Shown here: positions 1,693 to 34,376 of the stretch, one piece after another
Layout: every line of letters starts with the position of its first letter
Position numbering within the stretch: position 1 is the stretch's first letter
Assembly (NCBI GenBank): GCA_945888595.1
Contig: CAMDAO010000017.1
Coordinates: 1-34,637, forward strand
Length of the DNA: 34,637 nt
Direction: 5' to 3'
Source: Chryseobacterium gleum
GTDB taxonomy: Bacteria; Bacteroidota; Bacteroidia; Flavobacteriales_D; Crocinitomicaceae
Program-made: the position numbers and the translations under genes
Notes under the pieces: model-generated
Database searches by the model: none
Told to the model about the DNA's origin: nothing
Seen by the model: only the letters and a program-made list of their open reading frames with translations

Positions 1693-2439
1693 TTATGAGC
1701 ACACCTCTTCTATAAAACGAAGGGATTCACCTTTACGAAGTGCTTTCAAATAGGCCGAGCCAATAATGGCACCATCACAATGATTTTGAGCCATTTTCAC
1801 ATCTGCAGCAGTAGAAATTCCAAATCCCATCATTACAGGTATATTGCCACACAGTTTTTTAATTTCATCGTAACGATTTACGATGTTTAAATCAGTTATT
1901 AATTTCCCACCTGTAATACTGGTATTCGAAACTAAATACACGAAACTTTTACGAGAGATATTTTTTATTTTTACTATTCGTTCATTTTCTGTTAAGGGAG
2001 TTATCAAAAAAGTAACAGGAATTGAATAGTGGTCAAATTTACTTTTGTAAAATCGTTCATATATCTCTAAACTCATATCTGGAAGTAGGACAGAAGCAAT
2101 TGATAATTCTTGACATAGCTGCAAGAATTTCTCTAGACCAAATTGCAGCACTGGATTTAAATACCCCATCAAAACGAGGGGTGTATGGAGTTGACTTTTA
2201 ATCGATTTTAATTGGTTAAATAATAAATTCAGATCCATTCCATTGGCTAAAGCTATTGAACTCGTTTCTTGAATAACTGGTCCATCCGCCATTGGGTCGG
2301 AAAAAGGAATACCTACTTCGATGAAATCTATTCCGCTTTCTTGCAAAGAAATTATTTGTTCGATTGTACTTTCTAATGCAGGATATCCAGCTGTAATGAA
2401 AATACTTATTTGTTTTTTATTCTTTATAAATGGGTTCAT
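1693..2439 (-). CDS. trpA: Tryptophan synthase alpha chain
   Basis: Cleaves indole-3-glycerol phosphate to indole and glyceraldehyde 3-phosphate in the last step of tryptophan synthesis, passing indole to TrpB. The 248-residue TIM barrel carries the family motif EVGIPFSDPMADGP; E41 and D52 occupy the positions of the catalytic Glu49 and Asp60 of the enteric enzyme, with the same 11-residue spacing. The phosphate-binding GFGIS motif is near residue 205. It is the last gene of the trp operon, 10 bp after trpB. No clear terminator was found in the 176 bp between it and the convergent gene. Confidence 0.96.
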   Translation of the reverse strand: MNPFIKNKKQISIFITAGYPALESTIEQIISLQESGIDFIEVGIPFSDPMADGPVIQETSSIALANGMDLNLLFNQLKSIKSQLHTPLVLMGYLNPVLQFGLEKFLQLCQELSIASVLLPDMSLEIYERFYKSKFDHYSIPVTFLITPLTENERIVKIKNISRKSFVYLVSNTSITGGKLITDLNIVNRYDEIKKLCGNIPVMMGFGISTAADVKMAQNHCDGAIIGSAYLKALRKGESLRFIEEVCS

Positions 2440-2449
2440 TTTATTGTTT

Positions 2450-3640
2450 TTAATACCAATTCCCTATATACGTTTTCATATCCTTGTCTCCTCTTCCTGA
2501 TAAATTAATCACGACTACATCATTCGAATTTAATTCAATTTTATGCAATGCCGCTAACGCGTGTGCACTTTCTAATGCAGGAATAATTCCTTCTTCAATC
2601 GTTAGCTTTTTTGCTGCAGTTAACGCTTCTTGATCTGTGACTGAAATACTTTTTGTTCTTCCAGCTTCAATCGTATATGCATGTAAAGGTCCTATTCCCG
2701 GATAATCTAACCCTGCAGAAATGGAATACGGCTCGGTCACTTGTCCATATTCATCTTGCATGAGCAACGTTAAACTACCATGTAAAACACCAGGTGTTCC
2801 TAGGATAGAAGTTGCTGCTGAGTGTCCTGAGTCGTTTCCTAGACCAGCTGCTTCGACGGCTATTAATTCTACCTCTGGATGGTCGTAAAATTCAAAAAAA
2901 GCTCCTGCTGCATTACTGCCTCCTCCAACGCATGCTATCACTTTTGTTGGTAATTCATTCCCTGTTTTTTCTTTAAGTTGCATTTTTATTTCTTTCGAAA
3001 TAATTGCCTGAAAATAAGTAACCATTTCCGGATAGGGATGCGGACCAACTACACTTCCGATCAGATAATAGGATGACGAATGATTAATCCAATGACGAAT
3101 TGCTTCATTTGTTGCGTCTTTTAACGTTTTACTTCCACTAGTTGCTGAAACAACCTCGGCTCCTAGCAGTTGCATGCGTTGTACGTTTGGGGCTTGTCGT
3201 TCGATATCTTTTTCTCCCATATATACAATGCATTTCATGTTCATCAAAGCGCAAACTGTTGCTGTTGCTACACCATGCTGACCAGCACCTGTTTCTGCAA
3301 CAATATCCGTTTTACCCATTTTCCTCGCCAATAAAATCTGCCCAATTGCATTGTTTATTTTGTGAGCACCCGTATGATTTAAATCTTCTCTCTTTAAATA
3401 AATTGGGCAGCTAAATTGATTCGTCATTTTTTTAGAAAGATAAAGTGGCGTAGGCCTTCCAACATAATCAGCTAATAAATTTTTAAATTCGTTTTGAAAA
3501 TCAAAATCAGTTGCGATACGTTCAAAATTTTCTTTTAATTCTTCTATATTTTGACGAAGTAATTCAGGAATAAAGGCCCCACCAAAATCTCCGTAAAAAC
3601 CCATTTCATCTGGCTTCGTATACCTATTTTTTTTCTCCAT
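2450..3640 (-). CDS. trpB: Tryptophan synthase beta chain
   Basis: PLP enzyme joining indole and serine to give tryptophan. The ATG at 3640 ([14 protein letters not shown]) is preferred to an in-frame TTG at 3661, giving 396 residues, the usual TrpB length. The PLP lysine is K94 in [11 protein letters not shown]; the phosphate-binding loop GGGSNA and the C-terminal SGRGDKD motif are present. The 5' end overlaps the 3' end of trpF by 17 bp, suggesting translational coupling. TrpB and TrpA form a complex, consistent with their adjacency. Confidence 0.96.
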
Positions 3641-4268
3641 TATTTCTATTTTTGATTTCAAATAAATTATTCAATTCTAGTATAAATCTCTTTATCATTT
3701 CTATATTTTTATCTCCTGGATGATTTTCAAAACCACTGTTTAAATCTATCCCAACAAATGAAGGGTGCTTAAATTCAACAATATCTTGGGCTGAATTTGC
3801 AGTGATACCTCCACTCAATAAAAAAGGAATTTGTAATCGATAGTTTGATAATAGTTGCCAATTGAAAATCTTTCCTGAACCGCCATACTCTATTGTTCTG
3901 GTGTCAAATAAAAAATAATCAACGCTATGTTGATACTGGATTAATTGCTCAAAATCAAAGAATTCATCAATTCCAAAAGCTTTAATAATGCAAAATTCTC
4001 TCCTTAATTCTTTGCAAAATTCAGGTGTTTCTGAACCATGTAATTGCAAAATTTTTAAGGTATTACTATTCGCAATATTTCTTATTTCGCCTATCTTTTC
4101 ATCGACAAAAACACCAACTTTTAACGATTTTTTAACTTTTGAAGAAGACGAAAGCACCCTTCTCTTTGATTTCGCATAAAAAATAGAACCCAACCAAGTC
4201 ACAGAATCTAGCTCGTCTAACTGAATTACTTGTTTTTCTTGCTTTAAACCACAAATTTTGATAATCAT
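3624..4268 (-). CDS. trpF: Phosphoribosylanthranilate isomerase
   Basis: Converts N-(5-phosphoribosyl)-anthranilate to the carboxyphenylamino-deoxyribulose phosphate used by TrpC. The 214-residue barrel starts with the typical MIIKICGLK; the Cys at residue 6 is the expected general base and the Asp in LFDTRT is the expected general acid. GGSGKIFNW and LSGGIT are the phosphate-binding segments. It stands as a separate gene, not fused to trpC as in enterics. It lies 4 bp after trpC and overlaps trpB. Confidence 0.93.
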
Positions 4269-4272
4269 TTCT

Positions 4273-5055
4273 TTATTGCTTAGCTGTTTGACCTAAATTC
4301 AGAATAAAATCAGAGGGGGAATCACTCTTTAAAATACTTTCACCAATTAAAGCACCATGATAGCCGCACACAGCCATATGGAATAAGTCTTCTCTTGATT
4401 GCAATCCTGATTCTGAAATTAGCGTTTTATTTTTTGGAAGGAAATCAAACAATTCAATCGACGTAGAAATGTCAGTCTTCTGAAGTTTTAAATTCCGATT
4501 ATTCACCCCCACCATATCCACCTCATCATTCAATTTATACATTTGCGATTTTTCGTGAAATTCCATCAGGACTTCCATTCCTAAACTTTGAGCTAAAATG
4601 GTAAAATGTAGCGCTTTTTCTTCTGTTAACGCTTCAGCAATTAACAAAATAGCATCTGCTCCAATAGCCTTAGCTTGGAAAATTTGAATTTCATCAATAA
4701 TAAAATCCTTTCGTAAAATTGGAAGTGAAACTTGCTTCTTGATTTGCATTAAATCATCAATTGAACCCCCGAAAAAATTAAAATCAGTCAATACTGAAAT
4801 TGCAGCAACGCCTGATTTTTCATATTCATGCGCTAACAAACTTGGATTAACATCCTTTTTTAAAAGTCCTGCGCTTGGAGATTTTCGTTTTATCTCAGCA
4901 ATAATTCCAAATTCTTTTGATAGAATTGAATCCTTCATCGAAATTACATTTTCAAAGAAAAAAGATGATTTTTCAAAATCTTTTAAAGTGAAATGAGCTT
5001 TTAAAATTTCAACTTCGATTCTTTTTTGCTCTAATATTGTATCTAATAGTGTCAT
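4273..5055 (-). CDS. trpC: Indole-3-glycerol phosphate synthase
   Basis: Closes the indole ring to form indole-3-glycerol phosphate. It is a single-domain enzyme of 260 residues. Visible motifs are AEIKRKSPSAG (catalytic Lys in the first barrel strand), LRKDFIIDEIQI, GVNNRNL and ISESGL, in the correct family order. It sits between trpD (18-bp gap) and trpF (4-bp gap) in the operon. Confidence 0.95.
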   Translation of the reverse strand: MTLLDTILEQKRIEVEILKAHFTLKDFEKSSFFFENVISMKDSILSKEFGIIAEIKRKSPSAGLLKKDVNPSLLAHEYEKSGVAAISVLTDFNFFGGSIDDLMQIKKQVSLPILRKDFIIDEIQIFQAKAIGADAILLIAEALTEEKALHFTILAQSLGMEVLMEFHEKSQMYKLNDEVDMVGVNNRNLKLQKTDISTSIELFDFLPKNKTLISESGLQSREDLFHMAVCGYHGALIGESILKSDSPSDFILNLGQTAKQ

Positions 5056-5073
5056 GATTATTTTAATTTATTA

Positions 5074-6054
5074 CTATGAAAACATCTTTTTTCCTGACTC
5101 ACCACTTTTTATAAAATCAAGTGAATGATGGAAAAGTGCTTGTATTTTTTCTTCCGGATGATAACATTGCAATGCCAGCGCCGAATTGGCAGCAATTACA
5201 AAATTTTGAGATTGGGTGCCATGACCATGCAAGATATTTTTCAAAATACTTGCTGCTTCTTTTATCGTTTCACCCGAATAAAGTGCTAGTGGATTTATAG
5301 CTGCAACACCAAAACTAGCAGCACTTAAATAGGCATCCACATCTCCTCCCAAAACGCGTGTTTGATCAGTTAACGTCAATTCATCATACAGATCCATGCC
5401 ATATACAATTCTGTATCCTGTGCGTTCGTCTTTTAAAATATGTTGATAAATTTTAGCCAATTCTAAATTGAAAGTGCCTGTCAATTGATGTTTTGGTTGC
5501 ACTGGATTTAGCAACGGACCCAATGAATTAAAAAAGGTTCTAATTCCTAAATTTTTCCTTAAAGGGCCCACTTTCATTAATGTGGGGTGAAATAAAGGAG
5601 CATGAAGAAAGCAAATATTCGTTTCCGACAATTGTTTATTTAACTTCCGGACATCGTTGGTAAATACAAAACCTAATTCTTCTAATACATTGGAAGAACC
5701 ACAAAGAGAACTCACGCCATAATTTCCATGTTTAATAACTTTATATCCCATAGAAGCTAGCACAAAAGAAGTGGTCGTAGATATATTAAAAGTATTCTTA
5801 CTGTCACCGCCTGTGCCGCATAAATCAATCGCATCTGTCCCTTCTATTTCAGGAGGTATGCACACTTCTAATAAAGCTTCACGAAAGCCCTTTATTTCTT
5901 CTAATTGTAATCCGCGCATTTGTAAACCGACTAAAACAGCTACGATTTGCGCATCATTTATTTTCTCTTCTGAAATGGCATAAATAATTTCCTTCGCCTC
6001 CTCAAAAAGTAAAGGCTCTCGTTCTAAAATCTTATGCAATATATTTTTCATCAT
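5074..6054 (-). CDS. trpD: Anthranilate phosphoribosyltransferase
   Basis: Transfers phosphoribose from PRPP to anthranilate. The 326-residue protein has the PRPP-binding motif DLCGTGGDSKNTFNIST, the KHGNYGVSS segment, and the Mg-binding DELT motif near residue 226. It is slightly shorter than the enteric domain and is not fused to TrpG. Two adjacent Met codons (MMKN) make the start uncertain by one residue. Confidence 0.95.
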   Translation of the reverse strand: MMKNILHKILEREPLLFEEAKEIIYAISEEKINDAQIVAVLVGLQMRGLQLEEIKGFREALLEVCIPPEIEGTDAIDLCGTGGDSKNTFNISTTTSFVLASMGYKVIKHGNYGVSSLCGSSNVLEELGFVFTNDVRKLNKQLSETNICFLHAPLFHPTLMKVGPLRKNLGIRTFFNSLGPLLNPVQPKHQLTGTFNLELAKIYQHILKDERTGYRIVYGMDLYDELTLTDQTRVLGGDVDAYLSAASFGVAAINPLALYSGETIKEAASILKNILHGHGTQSQNFVIAANSALALQCYHPEEKIQALFHHSLDFIKSGESGKKMFS

Positions 6055-6087
6055 GTGTTTCGTATTAATTTGGAGCTCCTACGGTGT

Positions 6088-6654
6088 TTACTTTTCTAAA
6101 ATCCAATTGTTTATAATCTTTCTACCTTCAGGTGTTAAGATCGACTCAGGATGAAATTGCACCCCCCTTGTATCGTGGGAAATATGCCGAATTGCCATTA
6201 TTTCATTGGTATCTGACAACACTGTCACATTCAATTCTTTTGGCAGTTCTTCAGATATTTTCCAACTGTGATATCTTCCCACCTGAAATTGATTTGAAAT
6301 CCCTTTAAATAAAGAATCTTCCCTAACTTGCTGTACCAAAGATGATTTACCATGAACAGGCAATGCGCAGAGTTCCAAGTTACCTCCAAAAACTTCCGCT
6401 ATAGCCTGATGACCTAGACAAACACCTAACATTTTTTTATTTCCAGAATATTTTTTAATTATGGATAATAATTCTCCTGCCTCAGAAGGTATTCCAGGTC
6501 CTGGGGATAGCAGAATGGCGTCACAAGTATCTAAAATAGCATAATCAATTTGATTATTTCGTTGTACTATTATTTCATTTTTGGAGCATTCTTTTAAATA
6601 TCGCACGATATTGTATACGAAAGAATCAAAATTATCTATTACTGCAATTTTCAT
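6088..6654 (-). CDS. trpG: Anthranilate synthase glutamine amidotransferase component
   Basis: Class I glutamine amidotransferase that supplies ammonia to TrpE. The 188-residue protein has LLSPGPGIPSEAG, the nucleophile C79 in LGVCLGHQAIAE and the His-Glu pair in VQFHPESI. Its start codon overlaps the trpE stop by 4 bp (ATGA), consistent with coupled synthesis of the two subunits. Homologues can serve folate synthesis as PabA; the surrounding full trp operon supports the TrpG role. Confidence 0.94.
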   Translation of the reverse strand: MKIAVIDNFDSFVYNIVRYLKECSKNEIIVQRNNQIDYAILDTCDAILLSPGPGIPSEAGELLSIIKKYSGNKKMLGVCLGHQAIAEVFGGNLELCALPVHGKSSLVQQVREDSLFKGISNQFQVGRYHSWKISEELPKELNVTVLSDTNEIMAIRHISHDTRGVQFHPESILTPEGRKIINNWILEK

Positions 6655-8102
6655 GTGAATGATTGTTTTTTGGGTTGGATTGTATTTTCAGAAATATGCG
6701 TGGTTTGAGACCTTCCTGACAGATCTTGACTTATGCCCGCAATAATGGCGCTGCGTATCGCTCGCAATTTATGATGCACTTCTTGGGTTTCACTTTCTGG
6801 ATTTGAATCTAAAACTACTCCAGCCCCTGCTCTGTAATTCAATTGATTATTCTTACTTAATACACTGCGAATGACAATTGCCATATTCACATCTCCATTC
6901 GAACCAATTATCCCAATAGCTCCGCCATAGAAATCTCTTGTTGATTTTTCATATTTCGCAATTAACTCTAAAGCTTTCGGTTTTGGCGCGCCTGAGAGAG
7001 TTCCTGCAGGAAATGAACTATTTAAAACAGGAAAAGGATTCACTACTTGCAATTCGCCGGTAACTTTTGATACTAAATGAATAACGTGACTAAAATGCTG
7101 TACTTCTTTGTATCTCTGCACTTTTACAACTGTGCAATCTTTACTTAGATCATTTCTGGCTAAATCTACAAGCATCGTATGTTCTGCATTCTCTTTTTCA
7201 TCATTCATCAGAAAGTGAATACGTTCATCGTCTATGAAAGAATTACCAGTCTTTGGAACGGTACCAGCAATTGGATGAATCTCTGCTTTTCCATCTGAAA
7301 TAATTAATTGCGCCTCGGGTGAAGATCCAAATAAACGATATGATTCGAAATCAAAATAGAACAAATAGGGAGATGGGTTTAATCTTCTAAGTTGCCTGTA
7401 AACTTGGAAATCATCCCCGAAAAATCGATGTGAAAAAGCATTGGAAACAACCATCTGAAAAACATCACCCTGCGCACAATGCACCTTAGTTTTCTCTACT
7501 AGTCGCGTAAATTCTTCATCCGAAAAATCTGACTTTTCTTCACCTATTAACTCAAAAGGTAAATCAGTGAATGGTCGTTTACTTAATAATGAATTTATAT
7601 ATACCTCATCCGCCGGTTCTTCTACTAAGCTATTTAAAAGAATAGATCCATTATCTCTAAAATGATCGATGACTATTACCGTTTTAAAGAGGAAAAAGTG
7701 AACATCTGGTAAACCCAAAGTACTCTCTATTTTCTCAATATGACTTTCTTCTAAAAGGGAAAATTCAAATCCGATACGACCAAAAAAACCATTATACGAA
7801 GGAGACTTTTCATCCATGTGAAATGAATTTAAAACTTTCTGAATTTGCACGGAAACTGATTCTGTTGATTCTAAGCGAATCGTTTCATTTCTTATTTCAC
7901 CTGCAATTAGTATAAAATTGTCTTCCACTTTTATTTCGACAATCGGGTCTAAACCAATAAATGATTTACTATCGCTGCGCGAATGATAGTCATTACTTTC
8001 CAACAAACACGTTTTTCTATAATGATTTCGAAGCGACATGTACAATTCGACGGGCGTGTGGATATCGGCATTGAAGGAAGTAATTGTTGTGTAAATATTC
8101 AT
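6651..8102 (-). CDS. trpE: Anthranilate synthase component I
   Basis: Chorismate to anthranilate, the committed step of tryptophan synthesis. The 483-residue protein keeps the N-terminal LLES motif (residues 33-36) associated with tryptophan feedback binding. The C-terminal chorismate-binding domain contains PIAGTVPKTG, HTMLVDLARNDL, FPAGTLSGAPKPKA and YRAGAGVV. It is the first structural gene of the operon and lies about 108 bp after the leader peptide, with an intrinsic terminator between. Expression should therefore be controlled both by attenuation and by enzyme feedback. Confidence 0.95.
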   Translation of the reverse strand: MNIYTTITSFNADIHTPVELYMSLRNHYRKTCLLESNDYHSRSDSKSFIGLDPIVEIKVEDNFILIAGEIRNETIRLESTESVSVQIQKVLNSFHMDEKSPSYNGFFGRIGFEFSLLEESHIEKIESTLGLPDVHFFLFKTVIVIDHFRDNGSILLNSLVEEPADEVYINSLLSKRPFTDLPFELIGEEKSDFSDEEFTRLVEKTKVHCAQGDVFQMVVSNAFSHRFFGDDFQVYRQLRRLNPSPYLFYFDFESYRLFGSSPEAQLIISDGKAEIHPIAGTVPKTGNSFIDDERIHFLMNDEKENAEHTMLVDLARNDLSKDCTVVKVQRYKEVQHFSHVIHLVSKVTGELQVVNPFPVLNSSFPAGTLSGAPKPKALELIAKYEKSTRDFYGGAIGIIGSNGDVNMAIVIRSVLSKNNQLNYRAGAGVVLDSNPESETQEVHHKLRAIRSAIIAGISQDLSGRSQTTHISENTIQPKKQSFT

Positions 8103-8155
8103 AAATGAGATTTGTTAACTGATAAAATTGAAATGGAAAATGTGTAAAACAAAAA

Positions 8156-8186
8156 AAAACGGCTTGTCTATGTGATAAGCCGTTTT
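8156..8186 (-). terminator. trp operon attenuator (intrinsic terminator)
   Basis: In the trp direction the sequence forms a 10-bp stem AAAACGGCTT/AAGCCGTTTT with an 11-nt loop, continuing into a run of nine T. It lies about 25 bp after the leader stop codon and about 54 bp before trpE, as expected for a transcription attenuator. An alternative antiterminator pairing was not worked out. Confidence 0.85.
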
Positions 8187-8210
8187 ATAATATTTTGAAT
8201 AAATTACAAA

Positions 8211-8279
8211 CTAGCACCAGACACACCAACTGTTCGTTGAGTGCCACCAATAGTTTGAATTTAAAGTATTTGTTTTCAT
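8211..8279 (-). CDS. trpL: Tryptophan leader peptide of the trp attenuator
   Basis: A 22-codon reading frame on the minus strand, ATG at 8279 and TAG ending at 8211. Its C-terminal part reads NYWWHSTNSWCVWC, so four of the last twelve residues are Trp. It is followed by an intrinsic terminator and then trpE. A ribosome stalled at Trp codons when charged tRNA-Trp is scarce would be expected to favour read-through. The gene is far below usual gene-calling size. The frame, composition and position are directly visible; the mechanism is inferred from known Trp leaders. Confidence 0.87.
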   Translation of the reverse strand: MKTNTLNSNYWWHSTNSWCVWC

Positions 8280-8340
8280 CTGTGGTCAAAGGTTTGAATT
8301 TTTTTTTGGATAAAACAACTTAAATGTCATTTATTTTTCA

Positions 8341-8365: not shown

Positions 8366-8413
8366 ATGAAAGGAGAAACTGCATTTTATTGGTGGCTACA
8401 AAGTATCGAATAA
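8366..8413 (+). CDS. Aromatic leader peptide (Phe-Tyr-Trp-Trp) of the aro operon attenuator
   Basis: A 15-codon frame reading MKGETAFYWWLQSIE, ending in TAA at 8411-8413. It contains consecutive codons for Phe, Tyr, Trp and Trp, one run covering all three end products of the pathway. An intrinsic terminator follows 36 bp later, then the DAHP synthase gene. This suggests that starvation for any aromatic amino acid relieves termination before the first enzyme of the shikimate pathway. The peptide and terminator are seen directly; the regulation is inferred. Confidence 0.82.
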   Translation: MKGETAFYWWLQSIE

Positions 8414-8448
8414 GTGCGCTGGATTCTCCTAGTATAATAAATATTTAG

Positions 8449-8481
8449 AAAACCCGTTTCGTACTTCGAGATGGGTTTTTT
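8449..8481 (+). terminator. aro operon attenuator (intrinsic terminator)
   Basis: A 13-bp stem (8449-8461 with 8467-8479, two G.T pairs) with a 5-nt loop, ending in a six-T run. It lies between the aromatic leader peptide and the DAHP synthase gene, 31 bp before the latter. Its position makes it a conditional terminator and not the end of an upstream unit. Confidence 0.85.
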
Positions 8482-8511: not shown

Positions 8512-9588
8512 ATGAATTTAACACAAAATATTCAAGAATCAAATCGTCCTTTTTTAATCACGGGACCTTGCAGTGCGGAATCTCCTGAACAAGTGATGTC
8601 CGTTGCGAAGGAAATTGCTGTAAATGGCCATGCGAATGTTTTAAGAGCGGGTATTTGGAAACCTAGAACTCGTCCGGATTCGTTTGAAGGTATGGGCGAA
8701 ATCGCCTTGCCTTGGTTAATTGAAGCAGGAAAAGAAACTGGACTTCCCGTCACAATAGAAATTGCGAATCGTCATCATGCAGAATTAGCGTTAAAAGCTG
8801 GGGTTGATATTTTATGGATTGGCGCTAGAACAACTGTAAATCCTTTTGCGATTCAAGAAATTGCTGATTTTTTACAAGGAGTGAAAATTCCGGTCATGGT
8901 AAAAAATCCTGTGAATCCTGATTTAGAACTGTGGATTGGGGCCTTTGAACGTTTAGATAAAGCTGGCATCACTGATTTAGTAGCTATTCACCGAGGTTTT
9001 TCTGTGTACAAGCACCCTAAATATAGAAATGTTCCCACGTGGGAATTACCCATCGCTTTGCGCGAACGATTGCCCGATTTACCTATTATTTGCGACCCGA
9101 GTCATATTACAGGCAGGAGAGATTTATTGTTGGAAGTTTCTCAAAAAGCAATGGATTTAAACTTCGATGGATTGATGATTGAAACGCATCCGAATCCAGA
9201 TAAAGCATGGTCCGATGCTGCTCAACAAGTTACCCCAGATGGATTAAAAGATATTCTTAGGCAACTAATTCTTCGTACGAGAGATTTTTCTTCGATCGAT
9301 ACGGGTGCGATCGATGAACTTCGACTAAAAATAACCAATTTAGATGATCGCTTATTTGATATTCTGTCTGCCAGAATGAACATGAGTGAGGAAGTGGGCC
9401 GCTTTAAATTACAACATAACATTACCATTCTGCAGCAAGAATGGTGGATGAAAATAATTGAATCTCGTTTAAGTAAATCGGATAACTATCAACTTTCTGA
9501 GCGGTTTATTCGGCAAATAATGGATGCCATTCATCAAGAATCCATTCGTCACCAGACAAAAGTGATGAACAAACGAAATGAACCATGA
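8512..9588 (+). CDS. Bifunctional DAHP synthase / chorismate mutase
   Basis: The N-terminal domain (about residues 10-260) is a type I-beta, KDO8P synthase-like DAHP synthase that condenses erythrose 4-phosphate and PEP. Motifs are GPCSAES, RAGIWKPRTRP, VAIHRGF, CDPSHITGRR and IETHPNPDKAWSD. The C-terminal part (about 265-350) is an AroQ-type chorismate mutase helix bundle beginning IDELRLKITNLDDRLFDILSAR. This domain order is known from other Bacteroidota, where the mutase domain helps allosteric control. Thus the same protein acts at the entry of the shikimate pathway and at the branch to Phe/Tyr. It overlaps aroA by 4 bp and is preceded by the FYWW attenuator. Confidence 0.94.
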   Translation: MNLTQNIQESNRPFLITGPCSAESPEQVMSVAKEIAVNGHANVLRAGIWKPRTRPDSFEGMGEIALPWLIEAGKETGLPVTIEIANRHHAELALKAGVDILWIGARTTVNPFAIQEIADFLQGVKIPVMVKNPVNPDLELWIGAFERLDKAGITDLVAIHRGFSVYKHPKYRNVPTWELPIALRERLPDLPIICDPSHITGRRDLLLEVSQKAMDLNFDGLMIETHPNPDKAWSDAAQQVTPDGLKDILRQLILRTRDFSSIDTGAIDELRLKITNLDDRLFDILSARMNMSEEVGRFKLQHNITILQQEWWMKIIESRLSKSDNYQLSERFIRQIMDAIHQESIRHQTKVMNKRNEP

Positions 9589-10853
9589 AAAAAGTAATTC
9601 AACCTGGTAAAAGATTTGGAACAATAGCAATTCCAGCTTCAAAAAGTGATGCACAACGTTCCCTTTTAGCAGCGGCTTTAGCACATGGAGAAAGTAAAAT
9701 CCATAATATTGGCCAAAGTCAGGATGAAGTATCAATGATTTCCTCCATTCAAAAGTTAGGGGCAAAGGTGGATTTTATTAGTACAACATCAGCACGTATT
9801 ACTGGAATTAAAACCTTTCCCAAACAAGTGGAGTTAAATGTGGGTGAAAGTGGACTTGGAGTTCGCCTGCTGACCAGTATTTGCGCGGCACATGATGGAG
9901 TTTTTACCATTCTTGGTACTGGTTCTTTGGAAAGCCGACCTTTGACTTTTTTCAGTGACACACTGCCGAAATTTGGGGCTAAATTTCAATCAAACGATGG
10001 ATTTATTCCTTTACAAATTGAAGGTCCCATGGAGGGAGCAACCGTTGAATTAGACGGAAGTTTAAGTTCGCAATATATTTCAGGATTATTAATGGCTTTA
10101 CCGCTGGTAAAAAAAGACAGTCATTTGTCTATTTCAACTTTAAATAGTCTGCCCTATATTCAAATGACGTTAAGCACTTTAGGGAAATTTGGAATTGAAA
10201 TTCTTCATCAAAATTATGAGGAATTTATTATTCGAGGCGAACAAAAGTACATGCCAACAAACCACACCATTGAAAGTGATTGGAGTTCTGCTAGTTTTTG
10301 GTTGGTTGCTTCCGCGCTGGGAATGAATATTAAATTAACCGGACTTTCAATGACAAGTTTGCAGGCGGACAAACAAATTATTGACGCTTTTGAGGCAGCA
10401 AATTGCATCTTAAGCTACAAGGAAAATAAAATGAGAATGGATGGTCGAAATAGAACACCCTTTCAATTTGATGCTACTCATTGCCCTGATTTATTTCCTG
10501 CTTTGGCAACGTTTGCGGCATTGTGTGATGGCCGATCAGAAATAAAGGGTGTCAGTAGATTAGCGCATAAAGAAAGTAACCGAGGACTCGTTTTACAAGA
10601 AGAATTTGCAAATATTGGGGTACTTATTATTATAGATGGCGACATCATGCACATTCATGGAAAAACCAGTATTGAAGGAGGAAAAGTAGATGCTCACCAC
10701 GACCATCGGATAGCCATGTGCTTCGGAATCGCGGCACTTTTCGCAGATGAACCCATTGAAATAAAAGGTGCCGAAGCAGTCGCTAAAAGTTACCCTCAAT
10801 TTTGGGATGACCTAGAAGAATTATTTATAGATTCACGGTTCAAAAAGTCTTAA
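9585..10853 (+). CDS. aroA: 3-phosphoshikimate 1-carboxyvinyltransferase (EPSP synthase)
   Basis: Transfers the enolpyruvyl group of PEP to shikimate 3-phosphate. The 422-residue protein has PASKSDAQRSLLAAAL near the N-terminus, NVGESGLGVRLL (the diverged equivalent of the NAGTAMRP loop), DGSLSSQYISGLLMALPL, HKESNRG and DHRIAMCFGIAAL. The loop wording is diverged from enteric AroA but the order and length fit the family. It is translationally coupled to the DAHP synthase gene and shares its attenuator. Confidence 0.93.
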   Translation: MKKVIQPGKRFGTIAIPASKSDAQRSLLAAALAHGESKIHNIGQSQDEVSMISSIQKLGAKVDFISTTSARITGIKTFPKQVELNVGESGLGVRLLTSICAAHDGVFTILGTGSLESRPLTFFSDTLPKFGAKFQSNDGFIPLQIEGPMEGATVELDGSLSSQYISGLLMALPLVKKDSHLSISTLNSLPYIQMTLSTLGKFGIEILHQNYEEFIIRGEQKYMPTNHTIESDWSSASFWLVASALGMNIKLTGLSMTSLQADKQIIDAFEAANCILSYKENKMRMDGRNRTPFQFDATHCPDLFPALATFAALCDGRSEIKGVSRLAHKESNRGLVLQEEFANIGVLIIIDGDIMHIHGKTSIEGGKVDAHHDHRIAMCFGIAALFADEPIEIKGAEAVAKSYPQFWDDLEELFIDSRFKKS

Positions 10854-10984
10854 CCTATTTTTTGCCATTTTTAGCTCTTCCTTTACATGCTGAGTTGCGT
10901 ATATCCACTCAAATCGAGAAATAGACGCCATAATTTTCTTTTATATCTCAACTTTTTCATTAACTTAAGTAACAAAAATTGACC
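10854..10984 (+). other. Intergenic region between aroA and the recombinase gene
   Basis: 131 bp of AT-rich sequence with no clear hairpin terminator and no strong TAnnTTTG box. It is the boundary between core metabolism and the accessory region. Confidence 0.5.
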
Positions 10985-12406
10985 ATGAAAGAGAATCCAA
11001 TGACAAAACCACCTATTAATCAAACTATTACCAGTAAAAAAAGTTCATACAACGAGATTAAGATAGAAGTGTTTGAGCGACGAATTTTTTTAAAAATTCC
11101 GAAAAATGAAGCCGATATTGCATTTGTCCGTAAAATACAATTTGTGAAATGGGACAACAATTGGTTTCATTGGGTAATTCCCAACTATCCAGGCAACCTA
11201 TCTTTACTTCAAACCTACTTTAGTGGGAGAATAGATTCTTTTATTGAACACCAGAGCGAAATGGTAGAAATAAAGCCATTAGAGGAAAAAATACTAAAAA
11301 AGAGAGACGACGTTTTACTGATAAAAACAAAAAATAATCGATTAAGAATCCTATTTGGGTTTAATCAAAAACTACTTCAAACGATAAAAAAAATACCTTA
11401 TAATAGTTGGGATGGTAAAAACAAATGGTGGTCTATCCCTTATTCAGATTCATTTAAAGATCTTATATTGAAACAAATAGATGAGTTAAGTCTTTCTTTG
11501 ATCTATAAAGAAGAAGCCACAGAAGCGCCAAATACACACAAGCGCATAACTGCTTTTGATATTCCAAATTACAAGCAATGTCCGGAGGATTTTATCCTGA
11601 AATTAAAGGAATTGAGATACAGTTTAAATACCGAAAAGACCTATAAATTTGCCTTAGAAGATTATATCAATTACCATCATACAATTGACATTGACAAGCT
11701 AAACGAAAGTCATATTCAAACCTTCCTTAGACATCTTGTGATGGAGCGAAATGTATCTACTTCGTATCAAAACCAAGCCATCAATGCTGTAAAATTTTAT
11801 TATGAACGAGTATTAGGCGGTCAACGAAAAACGTATTTTATCGATCGACCAAAAAAAGAAAAAACATTACCAGTCGTTCTAAGCGAAGAAGAAATCATGC
11901 TTATTTTGCGCAGTGTAACGAATATAAAACACAAAGCAATTCTAATGATTATCTATTCTGCAGGCTTGCGTATTTCAGAATGCATTAATTTAAAAATAAA
12001 AGACATAGATTCTCATAGAATGCAAATTCGAGTTGAACAATCAAAAGGAAAGAAAGACCGTTACACCCTTTTAGCTACAAAAACTTTGCACGTGTTAAGA
12101 GATTATTTTAAAGAATATCGACCCAAAGAATTCCTATTTGAAGGACAAGATGGCGGATGCTATTCAGCGAGAAGCATTCAAAATATTTTCAGAGATGCTG
12201 TTGAAAGAGTAAAAATAAACAAGAAAGTAAGTGTTCATTCTCTCAGGCATAGTTTTGCAACTCATTTACTTGAGAATGGAACAAATTTAAGGTATATACA
12301 AAGTTTATTAGGGCACGCGAATAGTAAAACTACTGAAATATACACACATGTTACCACAAAGGGATTTGAAAATTTAAAAAGTCCTTTGGATAATTTGGAT
12401 ATCTAA
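10985..12406 (+). CDS. Tyrosine recombinase with N-terminal HARP-like repeats, probable cassette integrase
   Basis: The ATG at 10985 is taken in place of a TTG two codons earlier, giving 473 aa. In the 475-residue numbering from the TTG, a SAM-like N-terminal core-binding domain spans about 200-285 and the catalytic domain about 295-465. Catalytic residues are R331 (AGLRISEC), a Lys in SKGKKDR (356-359), H420 and R423 (HSLRHSFATHLLENG), H446 (LLGHANSKTT) and Y455 (IYTHV). The catalytic domain is XerC/D-like; I do not see the extra insertion before the HxxR patch that marks integron IntI proteins. Residues 25-90 and 110-175 form two related repeats (KWDNNWFHWVIP and SWDGKNKWWSIP), resembling the HARP domain of SMARCAL1-type annealing helicases. 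The gene lies 163 bp before the attI-like site and points the same way as the cassettes. Its role as the cassette integrase is inferred from this position. Confidence 0.88.
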   Translation: MKENPMTKPPINQTITSKKSSYNEIKIEVFERRIFLKIPKNEADIAFVRKIQFVKWDNNWFHWVIPNYPGNLSLLQTYFSGRIDSFIEHQSEMVEIKPLEEKILKKRDDVLLIKTKNNRLRILFGFNQKLLQTIKKIPYNSWDGKNKWWSIPYSDSFKDLILKQIDELSLSLIYKEEATEAPNTHKRITAFDIPNYKQCPEDFILKLKELRYSLNTEKTYKFALEDYINYHHTIDIDKLNESHIQTFLRHLVMERNVSTSYQNQAINAVKFYYERVLGGQRKTYFIDRPKKEKTLPVVLSEEEIMLILRSVTNIKHKAILMIIYSAGLRISECINLKIKDIDSHRMQIRVEQSKGKKDRYTLLATKTLHVLRDYFKEYRPKEFLFEGQDGGCYSARSIQNIFRDAVERVKINKKVSVHSLRHSFATHLLENGTNLRYIQSLLGHANSKTTEIYTHVTTKGFENLKSPLDNLDI

Positions 12407-12832: not shown

Positions 12833-13801
12833 ATGAGCTATCAAAACAAATACGCAGTAAAAGCAAAAGCCCTCATCTACCAAGGTGAGTTGGACTACAT
12901 TTCAAAATGTGTTCTTGATTATCCCGACATTGAAACAGGCGGAGATTTATTTGGCTTTTGGACTTATTCAGGTTTTCCGGTTATTCAATATGTAATTGGG
13001 CCAGGGAAAAAAGCAAATCATCAAGTTGCCTTCTTCAATCAAGACATTGACTATTTGCGTGAAGTAGGAAATGCTTTGCGTAATACACACGGACTACAAC
13101 ACATTGGCGAGTGGCACTCACATCACAGGTTAGGACTTGCAGAACCAAGCGGACATGACATCACCACAGTTACGAAGGCAATTGATAATTACAACTTAGG
13201 AAAGTTTTTTTTGGTAATTACAAATGTTCACCAAAGTTCATCAGGCATCAACGGTTTTATGTTTACGAAACAACAAGGAAGAGTTTTTGATTACACTGGT
13301 TGGGTTGTTCTAAATGGAGAAAGTCCAATGAGAAATTCTTTTGACAAAGAATTTGATTCGCTTGTTTACAAACCACAAACACAACGAGCATCAATAGTTG
13401 ATTTGACAACAGCAAGTTTAGGAGAAACAGAATTTGTAAAACCTGAATACACTGCTGAATATTGGTTAAGCGACAAATCAAACCACAAGGTTCTAAAAAA
13501 TATAATTGACGGACTTAGTGACGGAGTTGAAGAAGTAAAAGTATTTCAGAACAACGAGGACAAATCAATTTACTTAATGTTTCAGCACAAGGAAAAAAAT
13601 TATTCCTTGTCATTCCCAACTGACTTTCCACAATCAAAGCCAGTGATAAAGGAACTATCAAATGAAGCGGAAACAATTATAGATGCTAACGGGCAAGAAT
13701 GGAATCCCGAAGAAGAAATTTCTAAATCAACAATTGCATTTACCGAAAATATTTTAGGAATTAAAAAGAAAACTTTCTTTCAAACTTTATTAAGCAAATA
13801 A
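12833..13801 (+). CDS. JAB/JAMM-domain protease with C-terminal E2-like domain
   Basis: The N-terminal JAB fold has E34 in ETGG and the metal site EWHSHH...SGHD (H95, H97, D109), the zinc-binding pattern of deubiquitinase-type metalloproteases. Residues about 195-290 contain YSLSFPTDFPQSKPVI, the strand-turn pattern of UBC/RWD folds, without a catalytic Cys. In bacterial ubiquitin-like operons such proteins process the modifier precursor or remove it from targets. It is the first gene of a tight operon: 1 bp separates it from the E2-like gene. Confidence 0.83.
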   Translation: MSYQNKYAVKAKALIYQGELDYISKCVLDYPDIETGGDLFGFWTYSGFPVIQYVIGPGKKANHQVAFFNQDIDYLREVGNALRNTHGLQHIGEWHSHHRLGLAEPSGHDITTVTKAIDNYNLGKFFLVITNVHQSSSGINGFMFTKQQGRVFDYTGWVVLNGESPMRNSFDKEFDSLVYKPQTQRASIVDLTTASLGETEFVKPEYTAEYWLSDKSNHKVLKNIIDGLSDGVEEVKVFQNNEDKSIYLMFQHKEKNYSLSFPTDFPQSKPVIKELSNEAETIIDANGQEWNPEEEISKSTIAFTENILGIKKKTFFQTLLSK

Positions 13802-13802
13802 A

Positions 13803-14228
13803 ATGACACCACAACGACTACAACACGAAACAGCAATTTTGGAAAAATACTTTCCTAAAAAATACAAGTTTGAAAACTTGAATTTAGCAAACGAACTTTT
13901 AGATGTTGGAGTAAAAACCCAATCAGGAAAAGTATATCGTTTAAATATCAGGTTGAAACCTGATTACCCAAACTCACTTCCTGAAGTATTTGTAGTTTAT
14001 CCATTGCCTTTGAGAAGGCATGATGGTTCTGCAATTGATGGTGCTTCACATGAATTGCATACGCTTTCAAATGATGGAGACAAAATACAAATCTGTCATT
14101 TCAAACCTAATAACTGGAATCCTATTCAATCACTTTACAAAATAGTTTTAAAAGCAAGAATTTGGCTTGAAGCATACGAAGGACATTTAAGAACAGGAAA
14201 ACCAGTTGACGATTATTTAAACAGTTAA
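13803..14228 (+). CDS. E2-like (UBC-fold) conjugation protein
   Basis: 141 residues. YRLNIRLKPDYPNSLPEVFV matches the UBC meander strands, followed by HTLSNDGDKIQICHF and NWNPIQSL. C98 in ICHF is the probable catalytic cysteine and W105-N-P follows as in many bacterial E2-like proteins. The eukaryotic HPN motif is not present. It is expected to receive the modifier from the E1-like protein encoded two genes downstream. Assignment rests on motif pattern and on its position between JAB and E1 genes. Confidence 0.75.
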   Translation: MTPQRLQHETAILEKYFPKKYKFENLNLANELLDVGVKTQSGKVYRLNIRLKPDYPNSLPEVFVVYPLPLRRHDGSAIDGASHELHTLSNDGDKIQICHFKPNNWNPIQSLYKIVLKARIWLEAYEGHLRTGKPVDDYLNS

Positions 14229-14241
14229 ACAATAAAATAAA

Positions 14242-14439
14242 ATGGAAAACGAAAACAAAGCAACAAATCAAGAGATAACTAATTCTCTTGAGCAAATGAA
14301 CAAGGGATTAAACAACAACAGCAATCAGTTGGTGTTTGACCCGACAACAGGAGAGTTTGTTGTTGCAAAGCCGAACCAACAAGTTTCGCCTGATGCAACT
14401 ACAATCAATTCAATAGCACAAGACGGATTCGCCAAGTAA
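14242..14439 (+). CDS. Small protein of the conjugation operon, candidate modifier
   Basis: 65 residues, Asn/Gln-rich and hydrophilic, with the segment LVFDPTTGEFVVAKP in the middle and the C-terminus IAQDGFAK. No ubiquitin beta-grasp pattern can be recognised, and the protein may be largely disordered. It lies 13 bp after the E2-like gene and 5 bp before the E1-like gene, where a modifier is often encoded. G62 followed by three residues could be exposed by the JAB protease. FxPxTGEF is repeated at the N-terminus of the Ig-like protein in the same operon. No function is established. Confidence 0.6.
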   Translation: MENENKATNQEITNSLEQMNKGLNNNSNQLVFDPTTGEFVVAKPNQQVSPDATTINSIAQDGFAK

Positions 14440-14444
14440 CGCCT

Positions 14445-15707
14445 ATGAAACCACTTGTATATGTTTACGAAGAACATCTTCGTGAACTGATTGCTGCTTC
14501 ACAAACAGATATAATCAGAGGCGTTGCCTTTGAATGGAAAGGTGAAAGCGTTTATCATGTTCACACAAAGTTTCCGAAGGTTGCACCTTCGGGCTATCCT
14601 TCAATTGCCTTTTTTAAAATTGAAAAAGACAAAGATGCATTTGAAAACTGCAAAAGCAGTTTTCAAATGGTTGCTGATAGCGTTCACAATCCTGATACTG
14701 GTTTTTATAATTCAGTTCTTGGTGTTTTCCTTTTCCTTGACAAAGAGAAACTTTATCAATGTGCGTTTAGAAAATCCGAAACTGGTATTGAAGAATGTGA
14801 AGTAAAATATGTTCCTGAAAAAAGTGAATTGTATTCACGAAGCAAAGGACTTATTGAAGTTGACATTTTGGAGAACAAGAATGTTTTGATAATTGGTTTA
14901 GGAAGTTTCGGTTCACAAATAGCCGTTGAACTTGCGAAAGCAGGTATTGGAAATTTTACATTGGTTGACTTTGACAGAGTTGAACTATCAAATATTTCAA
15001 GACACATTTGCGGAGTCAATGAATTAGGAAGATTAAAAACATTTGCGGTTCGTGATGCGATTCTTGTGAAAAATCCATTTGCAAAAATTGATACTTGTGA
15101 GATAGACATAAATGAAAAATTAGAGTTGCTTACGCAACTCATTCAAAAAACAGACATTGTAATTTGTGTTACAGATAATAACCGTAGTAGATTCAACATA
15201 AATGAAATTGCTTTTGGTTTAGACAAGCCAGTAATTTATGGCAGAGCAGTTACAAGAGCAGAAGGCGGTGATGTTTTCAAATTGAAAGGACATGCAAGCC
15301 CTTGTTATGCTTGCTTAGTAAATGAAAGCGGGCAAATGAAATTCGGAGGTGATGAAGAAATTTCTACAAAGAAACAAGCAACGGAAGCACTTCCAACATA
15401 CACTAATCAGAACGATATTAATGCTGTTGTGCAAGTTGGTTTATCATCAGACATTTTACCGATGTGCAACTTGATTGTAAAACTTTCATTGCTTGAACTT
15501 TCAAAAGGATTAAGCAGCGGAATAAATTCTCTTGAAAGCGAATTGACTTACGATTATTATTTCTGGGCAAACCGTAGAGAGAAAAATTATTTGAACTATC
15601 AGCCATTTAATAATTCCAAAATGCAACCAACCATTTTAAAATGGTTTGGTGCAAAAATTCCGACAAATCCTGATTGTTTTCTTTGTTCAACATTACAAAA
15701 CCAATGA
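14445..15707 (+). CDS. E1-like (ThiF/MoeB) activating enzyme
   Basis: 420 residues. The adenylation domain (about 140-350) has the nucleotide loop GLGSFG (151-156), VDFDRVELSNISRH with D175, D177, N183 and R186, and VTDNN near 244. Four cysteines, C287/C290 (PCYAC) and C411/C414 (DCFLC), form the zinc site typical of the family. The N-terminal 130 residues are an extra domain that I do not recognise. Expected reaction: ATP-dependent adenylation of the modifier C-terminus and transfer to a thiol. The stop overlaps the next start by 4 bp. Confidence 0.87.
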   Translation: MKPLVYVYEEHLRELIAASQTDIIRGVAFEWKGESVYHVHTKFPKVAPSGYPSIAFFKIEKDKDAFENCKSSFQMVADSVHNPDTGFYNSVLGVFLFLDKEKLYQCAFRKSETGIEECEVKYVPEKSELYSRSKGLIEVDILENKNVLIIGLGSFGSQIAVELAKAGIGNFTLVDFDRVELSNISRHICGVNELGRLKTFAVRDAILVKNPFAKIDTCEIDINEKLELLTQLIQKTDIVICVTDNNRSRFNINEIAFGLDKPVIYGRAVTRAEGGDVFKLKGHASPCYACLVNESGQMKFGGDEEISTKKQATEALPTYTNQNDINAVVQVGLSSDILPMCNLIVKLSLLELSKGLSSGINSLESELTYDYYFWANRREKNYLNYQPFNNSKMQPTILKWFGAKIPTNPDCFLCSTLQNQ

Positions 15708-16489
15708 ACGAAAATATTCGCTTAGACGATAGCACGGTGTTTAATCCGCAGACAGGAGAGTTTGGAACTCTACCTCAAATTTTGCTATTCTCTACTGACA
15801 AGAATATTTTAACTGACGAAACACCAGCAATAGTAAATTGGACAGTATCAAACGCAACTGTAATAAAACTAAACAATGAAGTAGTTGAACCGACTGGAAC
15901 AAGAGAGTTTCATACAAGTGAACCTTTGACACTTACCCTATCCGCTTCAAATGATGTTGGTGCGGCAGAACCTAAGGCAATTACAATTGACATTGACAGA
16001 CGAATTCCTGTTATTCACTTTTTCAAACCGAATGTTCCAGTTGCAATAAAAGGTTCTCCCGTAGTATTGAATTGGAATGTTGAAGGAGCATACAAAATTG
16101 AAATTGGTGGAATAGGAATAGTGCCAAGCACTTCATCAAAAACAATAACATTAGGCGACAACGGAGTATTTACTCTCATCGCTAAAAATTATTTTGGTAT
16201 TCAAACAGAAGTAACAGCATCTGTAACAGTTTTCCCTACTCCCATTTTAGAAAGATTAATTGTTCCAATTCCTGACTTCAACAGAAAACTAAATTTGAAT
16301 CCACTTCATATTGAAGCACCAATTATTGATGTTTCAATTAAACGAAGTTACTCACTTGAAAAACCCAACTTTACAAAACAGTCATTTGACTTGCAAACAA
16401 CAAGGGCAATGCACAAACCAAAATATTCATACTTCAATCTGTCAGAAGTATTTCACCGAATAACAAAATCATTAAGAAACACGACATGA
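15704..16489 (+). CDS. Ig-like protein of the conjugation operon
   Basis: The ATG at 15704 overlaps the E1 stop (ATGA) and is preferred to an upstream in-frame start. The 261 residues begin MNENIRLDDSTVFNPQTGEFG, sharing the FNPQTGEF/FDPTTGEF motif with the small protein. Two beta-rich Ig-like segments follow (about 25-100 with VNWTVSNATVIKLN; about 105-180 with VLNWNVEGAYKIEIGG). The basic C-terminal 70 residues look unstructured. There is no signal peptide, so it is cytoplasmic. It could be a target, adaptor or sensor; the function is unknown. Confidence 0.65.
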   Translation: MNENIRLDDSTVFNPQTGEFGTLPQILLFSTDKNILTDETPAIVNWTVSNATVIKLNNEVVEPTGTREFHTSEPLTLTLSASNDVGAAEPKAITIDIDRRIPVIHFFKPNVPVAIKGSPVVLNWNVEGAYKIEIGGIGIVPSTSSKTITLGDNGVFTLIAKNYFGIQTEVTASVTVFPTPILERLIVPIPDFNRKLNLNPLHIEAPIIDVSIKRSYSLEKPNFTKQSFDLQTTRAMHKPKYSYFNLSEVFHRITKSLRNTT

Positions 16490-18264
16490 AAAAGCCAAAC
16501 CTTCTTCAAACCTTTTTTATTGCCTGTTCGGGTGCTGACAGAGACATAATGTTAGAATGTCCTTCTGAATACAACAAGTATTCAGGAATTGGAGCAACAA
16601 TTTTTTTAACTGCTGCACTTGCAGTTTTTACTGGTGGTTATGCTTTGAATTTTGTTTTTGATAATGCTCCTCTTTCTATTCTCTTCGGTATTCTTTGGGG
16701 GATTATCATTTTCAATCTTGACAGATACATTGTATTAAGTTTAAGAAAAGAAAAGATTCCAACTAAGACAGACATTTTAAGAGCACCATCAGAACAAGAG
16801 AGAACAGAACTTAAATCTGAAAGAAGCAGATTGTTGTGGAATCAGGCACTCATGGCTTCGCCAAGATTTTTAATTGCACTTGTAATTGCAATTACAATTT
16901 CAAAACCTCTTGAACTTCGTTTGTTCAGCACAAAGATTTTAAAAGAACATGAGAGAAGCTCTAAAGTTGAAACGGATAAATTTGATAAAGATGAAAACGA
17001 TAGGGTTGCAGGTTTCAACAAACAACTTCAAGACCTTAACGGAAAAGAAGAAAACGAAAAGACAGCGATTTATTCTAACAATCCAATTTACAAGGAAGCA
17101 ATTACAAAATTGCCAGAGATTCAAACTGGAATTGAAAGCAAAGAGAGTTTGATAAAAACCAACAACGGTATCATTGAAAAAAATAAATATTTAGAAACTG
17201 GTAGCAGGGAAAAACAAAATCCAATTAGTAAAGAGTGGGAAACAATCTACTACAAGTATTGGGTTAAGAATGCAACAGCAAGAGAAAAGGATGCTGAAAA
17301 TGTTCGCTTGAACAATGAGAAAAAACAACTTGCAACAGAAAAAACTACTTACACTTCAAAAAAAGACACTGTTGAAAAACAGCTATTAGCAAAAACAGTT
17401 TCAATTGCAAGCCAGTATGATTTACAACGAGCACCAATTAAGCAAAGCATTGAAGATTTAAAGGAAACATATCCTATAAGGAAAGCAAAATATATTTCAA
17501 CTGTCCAGCTTAATCCCGACATTCTTGAACGAATGCAATATTTGTCAAACATCTCAACATGGTTCAATCCTGTTTGGTGGGCAAGTTTTGTAATCACTCT
17601 TTTATTCATGCTTCTTGAAACAGCACCAGTTGTAGTAAAACTTCTAACTAAAAGAGGACCGTATGACGATAAACTTGATAGAATTGAATATGAGCATTAC
17701 ATAAATGAACAAGAAATTATTTCAAGGTGGAATACTAAAATAAATGTGTTGCTTGAAAAGGCAAGAGAAGCCGCAAGGTTAGAAGGTGATGTTTTTATCA
17801 AGATTGAACAACAACGCCTTGACCATGAATTAAAAAATAACCAAACAATTCTTGACGACTTAGCAGGTAAACAGGAAACACTTGCGAAAATGGCAATTGA
17901 AAAATGGTATGAGGAAGAACTTAGAAAAAGTAAATCGCAAGACACAACTGAAAGCAATCAAAGCAATCAGAATGGTCAGCATAATCAATTCAAACTTGAA
18001 GATACATTTTGGAAGTTAGTAAACTCACCAAGCGATATTCAATATTTCTTTAGAAATGGTTCACCAATAAGCAACGAATTATTGTACCGTGAAGACGGCA
18101 AATTGACATTGGGTAAATGGAATTATGGAGAAGATAAAACAGAAATTGCTGTTGATATTTTTGAAGAAAAAAGAAATTATAAAATTGAATCTTTGTCTAA
18201 CAATTCTTTGAAGTTGAAAGAGAGGGGAACTACTGAATTAATTGAATTTGAAAAAACATCATAA
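16486..18264 (+). CDS. DUF4407 membrane protein with coiled coil and C-terminal extension
   Basis: 592 residues. ADRDIMLECPSEYNKYSGIG and the next two hydrophobic segments (about 30-55 and 60-80, ending NLDRYIV) are typical DUF4407. A third membrane segment lies around 127-145. Charged coiled coil covers about 150-330, a fourth membrane segment (WFNPVWWASFVITLLFMLL) about 362-385, and a second coiled coil 400-490. The last 90 residues form an extra beta-rich domain (LGKWNYGEDKTEIAVDIFEE). It overlaps the Ig-like gene by 4 bp. A membrane effector or sensor for the conjugation system is possible but not shown. Confidence 0.78.
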   Translation: MKKPNLLQTFFIACSGADRDIMLECPSEYNKYSGIGATIFLTAALAVFTGGYALNFVFDNAPLSILFGILWGIIIFNLDRYIVLSLRKEKIPTKTDILRAPSEQERTELKSERSRLLWNQALMASPRFLIALVIAITISKPLELRLFSTKILKEHERSSKVETDKFDKDENDRVAGFNKQLQDLNGKEENEKTAIYSNNPIYKEAITKLPEIQTGIESKESLIKTNNGIIEKNKYLETGSREKQNPISKEWETIYYKYWVKNATAREKDAENVRLNNEKKQLATEKTTYTSKKDTVEKQLLAKTVSIASQYDLQRAPIKQSIEDLKETYPIRKAKYISTVQLNPDILERMQYLSNISTWFNPVWWASFVITLLFMLLETAPVVVKLLTKRGPYDDKLDRIEYEHYINEQEIISRWNTKINVLLEKAREAARLEGDVFIKIEQQRLDHELKNNQTILDDLAGKQETLAKMAIEKWYEEELRKSKSQDTTESNQSNQNGQHNQFKLEDTFWKLVNSPSDIQYFFRNGSPISNELLYREDGKLTLGKWNYGEDKTEIAVDIFEEKRNYKIESLSNNSLKLKERGTTELIEFEKTS

Positions 18265-33217: not shown

Positions 33218-33286
33218 ACGTTTGCAATAATACTAAAAATCGTAGAAAAATAGAACGAGAATAATTTTTAAGATTTTCAATTTGAT

Positions 33287-33294
33287 TATATTTG
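33287..33294 (+). promoter_or_regulatory. Candidate -7 box of the zeta-toxin gene
   Basis: TATATTTG, full match to TAnnTTTG, only 5 bp before the ATG at 33300, so the transcript may be almost leaderless. Confidence 0.35.
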
Positions 33295-33299
33295 CAATT

Positions 33300-34055: not shown

Positions 34056-34376
34056 TCAGGTAATATAATTGTACTTGAAAATAGAAAAGCACGCATAAAG
34101 TGTTAAAATTGACTCCTTTATTTTTGACACTAAGCCTTTAGGGTGTTTTGGTTCCCATTTCTTAATTTTTTCCAATAACTTTTCTATTCCTAGTAAATTG
34201 ATGGCCCGTTTCATAGTATAAACCGTCATAATTAATACCATTTCACCGTTTACTTTTTCAAGTTCCAATTGCTCCACAAATGCATCCACAAACCGCACAG
34301 CATTTTCTTTCTCAATAAATTCCTCCATGCTACGCATCTGAATTTGAAACCGATCTTGAACACCTAAATAGCTCAT
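34056..34376 (-). pseudogene. Internally deleted IS1182-family transposase
   Basis: The first 39 residues (to FVEQLEL) match copy 1, then the frame joins directly to EKVNGEMVLIMTVYTMKRAIN, the C-terminal region of copy 1. The middle of about 1.25 kb is missing. The junction falls in TTTTTCAAGTTCC, where copy 1 has TCAAGT at both deletion ends. No catalytic core remains. Confidence 0.8.

Follow-up and report, generated by a model that had tools for sequence, protein, structure and literature searches.

The trpL and pheL leaders of E. coli each respond to a single amino acid and control terminal branches of aromatic synthesis. The DAHP synthase genes of the same organism, aroF and aroH, are repressed by TyrR/TrpR (PMC11802643). 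A leader peptide ahead of a DAHP synthase gene has been described in C. glutamicum: the aroR leader of aroF carries Phe-Tyr-Phe and acts by ribosome-mediated attenuation (PMC4046766; PMC11802643), Phe limitation being effective and Tyr without effect (Neshat et al. 2014, as cited in PMC11802643). In the phylum Bacteroidota, a Trp leader RNA is known as Bacteroid-trp (Rfam RF01692; Weinberg et al. 2010, PMC2864571), while in Acholeplasma the element uORFC-13-1 comprises an uORF and a terminator upstream of aroF, also encoding DAHP synthase (PMC8632094). For the leader considered here, we found no description in the open papers, most of the subscription literature being unsearchable.

This leader lies in a 34,637-nucleotide stretch of DNA (hereafter, the window) from a MAG that named relatives place in the Crocinitomicaceae (Bacteroidota, Flavobacteriales). 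It encodes 15 codons and precedes a gene for a fusion of DAHP synthase I and chorismate mutase, with which the overlapping aroA is probably co-regulated. The first-pass annotation had read the sequence, frame and coordinates of the leader and the identity of the downstream gene correctly, and its 13-bp terminator core (AAAACCCGTTTCG/CGAGATGGGTTTT) was confirmed as well; it had recognized the leader and the terminator, while missing the antiterminator, the 5′ protector hairpin and the leader on the trpE side. We scanned the window for short ORFs with either WW or four consecutive aromatic residues and a terminator no more than 100 nt away. Whereas 100 dinucleotide shuffles yielded no such pair, the window contains two: one is the DAHP synthase leader, and the other (8279-8211, minus strand) belongs to the divergent trpEGDCFBA operon. 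Thus, the 410 bases separating trpE from the DAHP synthase gene hold two putative attenuators in divergent orientation.

Table 1. Features of the DAHP synthase leader and its surroundings (positions in the window).
Feature	Position	Strand	Remarks
trpE-G-D-C-F-B-A operon	1693..8102	-	divergent neighbour
Terminator of the trpE-side leader	8149..8186	-	AAAACGGCTTATCACATAGACAAGCCGTTTT and T-run
trpE-side leader peptide MKTNTLNSNYWWHSTNSWCVWC	8211..8279	-	ORF and terminator; sub-threshold RF01692 match at 8174-8299
Leader peptide ORF MKGETAFYWWLQSIE	8366..8413	+	ATG 8366, TAA 8411-8413; conserved in frame and aromatic cluster (comparison of 28 leaders)
1:2 (protector) hairpin	8371..8430	+	GGAGAA...UUCUCC at the base; predicted for the window
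Regulatory codons Phe7-Tyr8-Trp9-Trp10	8384..8395	+	TTT-TAT-TGG-TGG; Trp alone invariant among relatives
Antiterminator, 5′ arm	8412..8422	+	AAGUGCG-C-UGG; overlaps the stop codon; predicted pairing
Intrinsic terminator (3:4)	8447..8481	+	strong; stem 8447-8461 with 8467-8481, loop UACUU
Antiterminator, 3′ arm	8454..8466	+	CCG...CGUACUU; within the terminator's 5′ arm and loop; predicted pairing
DAHP synthase-chorismate mutase gene	8512..9588	+	bifunctional, regulated gene; PF00793 and PF01817; ATG 8512
aroA (EPSP synthase)	9585..10853	+	overlaps the DAHP synthase gene

The predicted folding energy of the 116-nt leader is -37.6 kcal/mol (z = -5 relative to dinucleotide shuffles). The core of the predicted antiterminator joins AAGUGCG (8412-8418) to CGUACUU (8460-8466) and is extended by UGG/CCG. 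Since the antiterminator and the terminator both use the 5′ arm of the latter, they are mutually exclusive, and the 5′ arm of the antiterminator would be covered by a ribosome standing at the stop codon. An intrinsic terminator is present in all 28 leaders compared, always before the first structural gene. The protector hairpin is strong in the window (p = 0.012, duplex versus shuffles); when it is treated as a simple duplex, its conservation among the relatives falls short of significance (combined p = 0.09). Taken together, a short ORF with codons for end products of the pathway, an intrinsic terminator and a predicted antiterminator excluding it match the layout of an attenuator of transcription that works through the ribosome.

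We therefore favour, at a probability of roughly 87%, a classical attenuator of this type on the trp-linked DAHP synthase-chorismate mutase-aroA operon, with Trp as the principal signal. We infer that the leader is translated and that ribosomes stall in it, and, further, both the read-through and the identity of the acting amino acids. When charged tRNA-Trp is scarce, the ribosome would stall at UGG UGG (8390-8395), leaving 8412-8422 free to pair with 8454-8466; the terminator would be blocked and RNA polymerase would read through. With ample Trp, the ribosome would reach UAA and mask the 5′ arm of the antiterminator, so that the terminator could form. Were the leader left untranslated, this arm would be sequestered by the 5′ hairpin. 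Ribosomes halted at the adjacent upstream Phe or Tyr codon would likewise leave it free, and the copy in the window may thus sense shortage of Phe or Tyr, too.

Relatives within the Crocinitomicaceae conserve the frame of the leader, its placement and the antiterminator, the latter being rebuilt in different letters. Congeneric leaders at the equivalent place include MTIKNTRFFWWWNNLN, MKNYNTRFFWFWNSLS, MFFNSSDIWWLLNLN, MNFTKQNFWWWFKTR and MNFSTQLFWWWYITQ, and the frame and the aromatic cluster are conserved in other genera as well. A covariance model of the genus (R1), searched across the family, recovered the element in a sister genus, and further leaders emerged when 80 named DAHP synthase loci were surveyed. 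Below E ~1e-4, many R1 matches were plain gene-end terminators; a match at L048/L102, being a gene tail followed by a terminator, was rejected as a leader. The model also picks up His leaders (HHHH before a hisG-like gene), which served as a sanity check; such leaders, accompanied by a terminator, were seen at three loci (L057, L058 and L060) of another genus of the family (MTQLFHHHHRLLC, MTQLHHHHHMLS and MTTFLHQHHHGLLS).

In eight congeneric sequences, 100% of the counted cells of the antiterminator pair, versus 30-55% when the arms are slid by 1-3 columns. The changes observed there were one two-sided replacement of G-C by A-U and a single change of G-U to A-U; formal covariation is weak in this alignment because the sequences hardly vary. 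The case for the antiterminator rests instead on the wider set of leaders, in which predicted helices recur in other letters: CGAAGC/GCUUCG (L089), GGGAGGUUU/GAGUCUCCC (L027), GCGUUGGAU/AUCCUGACGC (L069), AAAGCGAAUAGGG/UCCCAUUCGCUUU (L108) and, among the same 28 leaders, GCGAAUAGGG/UCCCAUUCGC. Across 18 groups formed from these 28 leaders of many genera, the duplex energy of the antiterminator beats that of shuffles (combined p = 4e-6), with weak scores in several distant leaders (L074, L076, L078, L045 and L019). The proposal of the first-pass annotation that a leader peptide controls DAHP synthase by attenuation is thereby supported, at the level of sequence, by a conserved frame, a covarying antiterminator and a terminator.

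It is also important to distinguish this leader from the one on the trpE side. RF01692 scores 38.8 bits on the latter in the window (threshold 49) and exceeds 49 bits in four other loci (L011, L074, L082 and L117). The plus-strand DAHP synthase leader of the window was unmatched by RF01692 even at E up to 10, and the DAHP synthase side was unmatched at gathering score in 20 loci.

The presence of the leader follows tryptophan biosynthesis. The trpE gene was found in 26 of 27 leader-bearing genomes versus 4 of 46 leaderless ones (L095, L119, L124 and L126; Fisher p = 1.6e-14); trpE calls scored well above the background of ~400-residue chorismate-binding paralogues, while many of the surveyed genomes are incomplete MAGs and the absence of a leader is a call of our own scanner. 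Of 11 independent contrasts on the DAHP synthase tree, ~10 agree with this association and none runs against it (sign test p ~0.002). Two congeners, G003 (99% complete) and G007 (96%), retain DAHP synthase without the leader, and trpE, trpB and trpD are absent from both. G003 shows 95.6% identity with the window from base 8501 on, that is, from twenty bases beyond the terminator; upstream of this point it is wholly different, both leaders being replaced by a tsaB-like gene; DAHP synthase there stands immediately downstream of a TsaB/TsaD-family gene. The gene upstream of DAHP synthase in G007 has an end closely similar to that gene of G003. Linkage accounts for part of the co-loss, since the leader and the trp operon adjoin and one deletion takes both. 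In three genomes (L019, L108 and L112), DAHP synthase retains a WW leader even with trpE situated on a different contig. Overall, the pattern of co-loss fits a Trp-centred device. At one further locus (L107), an intact leader, MKIQIQNKFILWWSTIFY, lies ~700 bases upstream of 3001, with a short apparent remnant of a trpE start upstream of it; a full trpE was not found in that genome. The Trp pathway may have been lost here only recently, the leader having so far survived.

The codons themselves point in the same direction. Every one of the 28 leaders has Trp codons, mostly 5-9 codons ahead of the stop. Phe or Tyr stands in the Trp cluster in 19 of the 28 (Phe in 15, Tyr in 9, both in 5), and neither in the remaining 9; Trp-only clusters include ISWSW, VWWQ, TWLW, IWWLL and KWWS, and examples of leaders with Trp alone are MMNRTQISWSWGALI, MKLTISNTWLWSNLK and MNTTIKVWWQSMTISL. 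Tyr shows no conservation within the genus. Nevertheless, Phe and Tyr cluster beside Trp in the DAHP synthase leaders beyond chance (permutation p = 0.0004), whereas the trpE leaders of these genomes show no such clustering (p = 0.31); the paired comparison of the two sides gives p = 0.015, and Trp codons number ~4 per leader on the trpE side versus ~2 on the DAHP synthase side. Such clustering makes an auxiliary Phe/Tyr input plausible. At the same time, the Trp-only leaders and the presence of both Phe and Tyr in just five indicate that what is conserved is not an equal response to all three amino acids.

The first-pass annotation had supposed that one peptide reads all three end products, so that any single shortage would switch on the common pathway. 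We regard as doubtful a sensor in which shortage of any one of Phe, Tyr and Trp relieves termination about equally. A ribosome stalled at any of the four codons in the window would indeed leave the antiterminator free, and FYW combinations recur in separate lineages (FYWFW in L043, FYW in L099); the clustering of Phe and Tyr near Trp, specific to the DAHP synthase side, speaks for this reading as well. However, the alignment that the first-pass annotation called for, of F/Y/W codons in relatives, returned conservation of the frame and of Trp, whereas Phe and Tyr join Trp in 5 of 28 leaders. The leader also vanishes with Trp biosynthesis though DAHP synthase remains, which counts against equal sensing, and in G003 it has gone with the trp genes while the pheA operon stays. 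We also considered whether genomes with a single DAHP synthase-chorismate mutase keep Phe/Tyr codons and those with an additional, pheA-linked copy lack them, and found no association: ~7 of 9 two-copy and 12 of 18 one-copy genomes have them. Moreover, UUU and UAU are cheap in an AT-rich leader and could serve RNA pairing, and C. glutamicum AroR, for all its Phe-Tyr-Phe, is unresponsive to Tyr (PMC11802643). At the opposite end, the leader might sense Trp only, the Phe and Tyr codons being incidental or needed for RNA structure. Trp is the sole invariant aromatic residue, and the leader follows trpE; in addition, a conserved FFF accompanies the Asn codons of candidate asnA leaders (see below), so a leader may contain Phe codons without a regulatory role. 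We hold this explanation to be possible, if short of even odds, the enrichment in Phe and Tyr confined to the DAHP synthase side being the evidence against it.

Explanations that dispense with the stalled ribosome fare much worse. A constitutive terminator or a chance ORF, with no regulation involved, is very improbable, given the outcome of the shuffles and the conservation of the frame, the Trp position and the antiterminator across many genera. A Trp riboswitch or an RNA-binding-protein attenuator (TRAP-like or T-box) would be compatible with a terminator/antiterminator pair as such. Yet none of the Rfam families reaches its gathering score in the window, the leader yields neither a T-box nor another known riboswitch even at E up to 10, and the conserved unit is a frame of Trp codons whose stop overlaps the antiterminator, which the position of a ribosome explains best; we give this mechanism hardly any credence. 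The best reading of the sequences is, in our opinion, a Trp-responsive attenuator with an auxiliary and evolutionarily labile Phe/Tyr input. It is tempting, albeit tentative, to go further and suppose a compound sensor of the OR type: a 15-codon leader combining Trp with Phe and Tyr shortage, whose codon mix would be retuned among lineages while its Trp core stayed constant, and which would be dropped entirely with every loss of Trp synthesis.

Several other putative leaders were encountered in the family. Phe-rich leaders with a terminator (MTQNFNFFFFSFFHKCD, MKKMNNFFFYDFHWRD and MFNKHFHFYWYMLDKVGK) precede a pheA-DAHP synthase-CM(2)-aroB-aroA operon at L141, L142, L143 and L145 (minus strand; gene order as read in L142), representing a second putative aromatic attenuator in the family; G003 keeps MKKMNNFFFYDFHWRD before its pheA-DAHP synthase-aroB-aroA operon. 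Some genomes thus carry two DAHP synthase-chorismate mutase operons with different leaders, one Trp-centred and one Phe-rich, which makes isozyme-specific control through codon content testable. In the assembly of the window itself (86% complete), pheA was not found, so the isozyme comparison rests on congeners. Candidate Asn leader attenuators were seen before asnA (aspartate-ammonia ligase) at L142, L146 and L147 (MKTTNYNFFFNHNRFR, MSNNFFFNNNNHIR and MKINNTYFFFNNNYMT), all with FFF directly before the Asn codons.

Elsewhere in the window, positions 12833-18264 hold genes for JAB-domain, E2-like, ThiF/E1-like, unknown and DUF4407 membrane proteins. The PADLOC models JAB, E2 and E1-E2 match the first three, and a tyrosine recombinase lies nearby (10979-12406); the gene content suggests a bacterial ubiquitin-like system, possibly an anti-phage one. 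A Zeta-toxin-like kinase (PF06414, E 5e-10) is encoded at 33282-33884, and two minus-strand transposase-like copies (27280-27756 and 34056-34376) have their first ~40 residues in common.

If our interpretation is correct, leader-peptide attenuation in Bacteroidota is not confined to the Trp branch, where Bacteroid-trp represents it, but reaches the enzyme at the entry to aromatic synthesis, the constant signal being Trp. The ~10 independent contrasts in which the leader and the tryptophan pathway change jointly provide natural replicates.

Set against the systems described above, the DAHP synthase leader differs from Bacteroid-trp in its shorter peptide, in having 1-3 Trp residues often with Phe/Tyr nearby, and in its antiterminator. 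With uORFC-13-1 of Acholeplasma it has the combination of uORF and terminator in common, whereas the element of that other phylum has Phe codon(s) only and a motif of its own. To trpL and pheL it is alike in mechanism, as far as anatomy tells, through leader codons and alternative 2:3 and 3:4 helices. A counterpart in layout is aroR of C. glutamicum, likewise a multi-aromatic peptide before DAHP synthase under ribosome-mediated attenuation (here judged by anatomy); this actinobacterial leader, however, is Phe-responsive with no Trp codons reported, whereas Trp is invariant in ours, and convergence of the two is likely. For mixed codons ahead of a DAHP synthase gene, Phe-Tyr-Phe of AroR is a precedent. 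Overall, we might conclude that the leader belongs to a known class of mechanism and that its codon mix is unusual.
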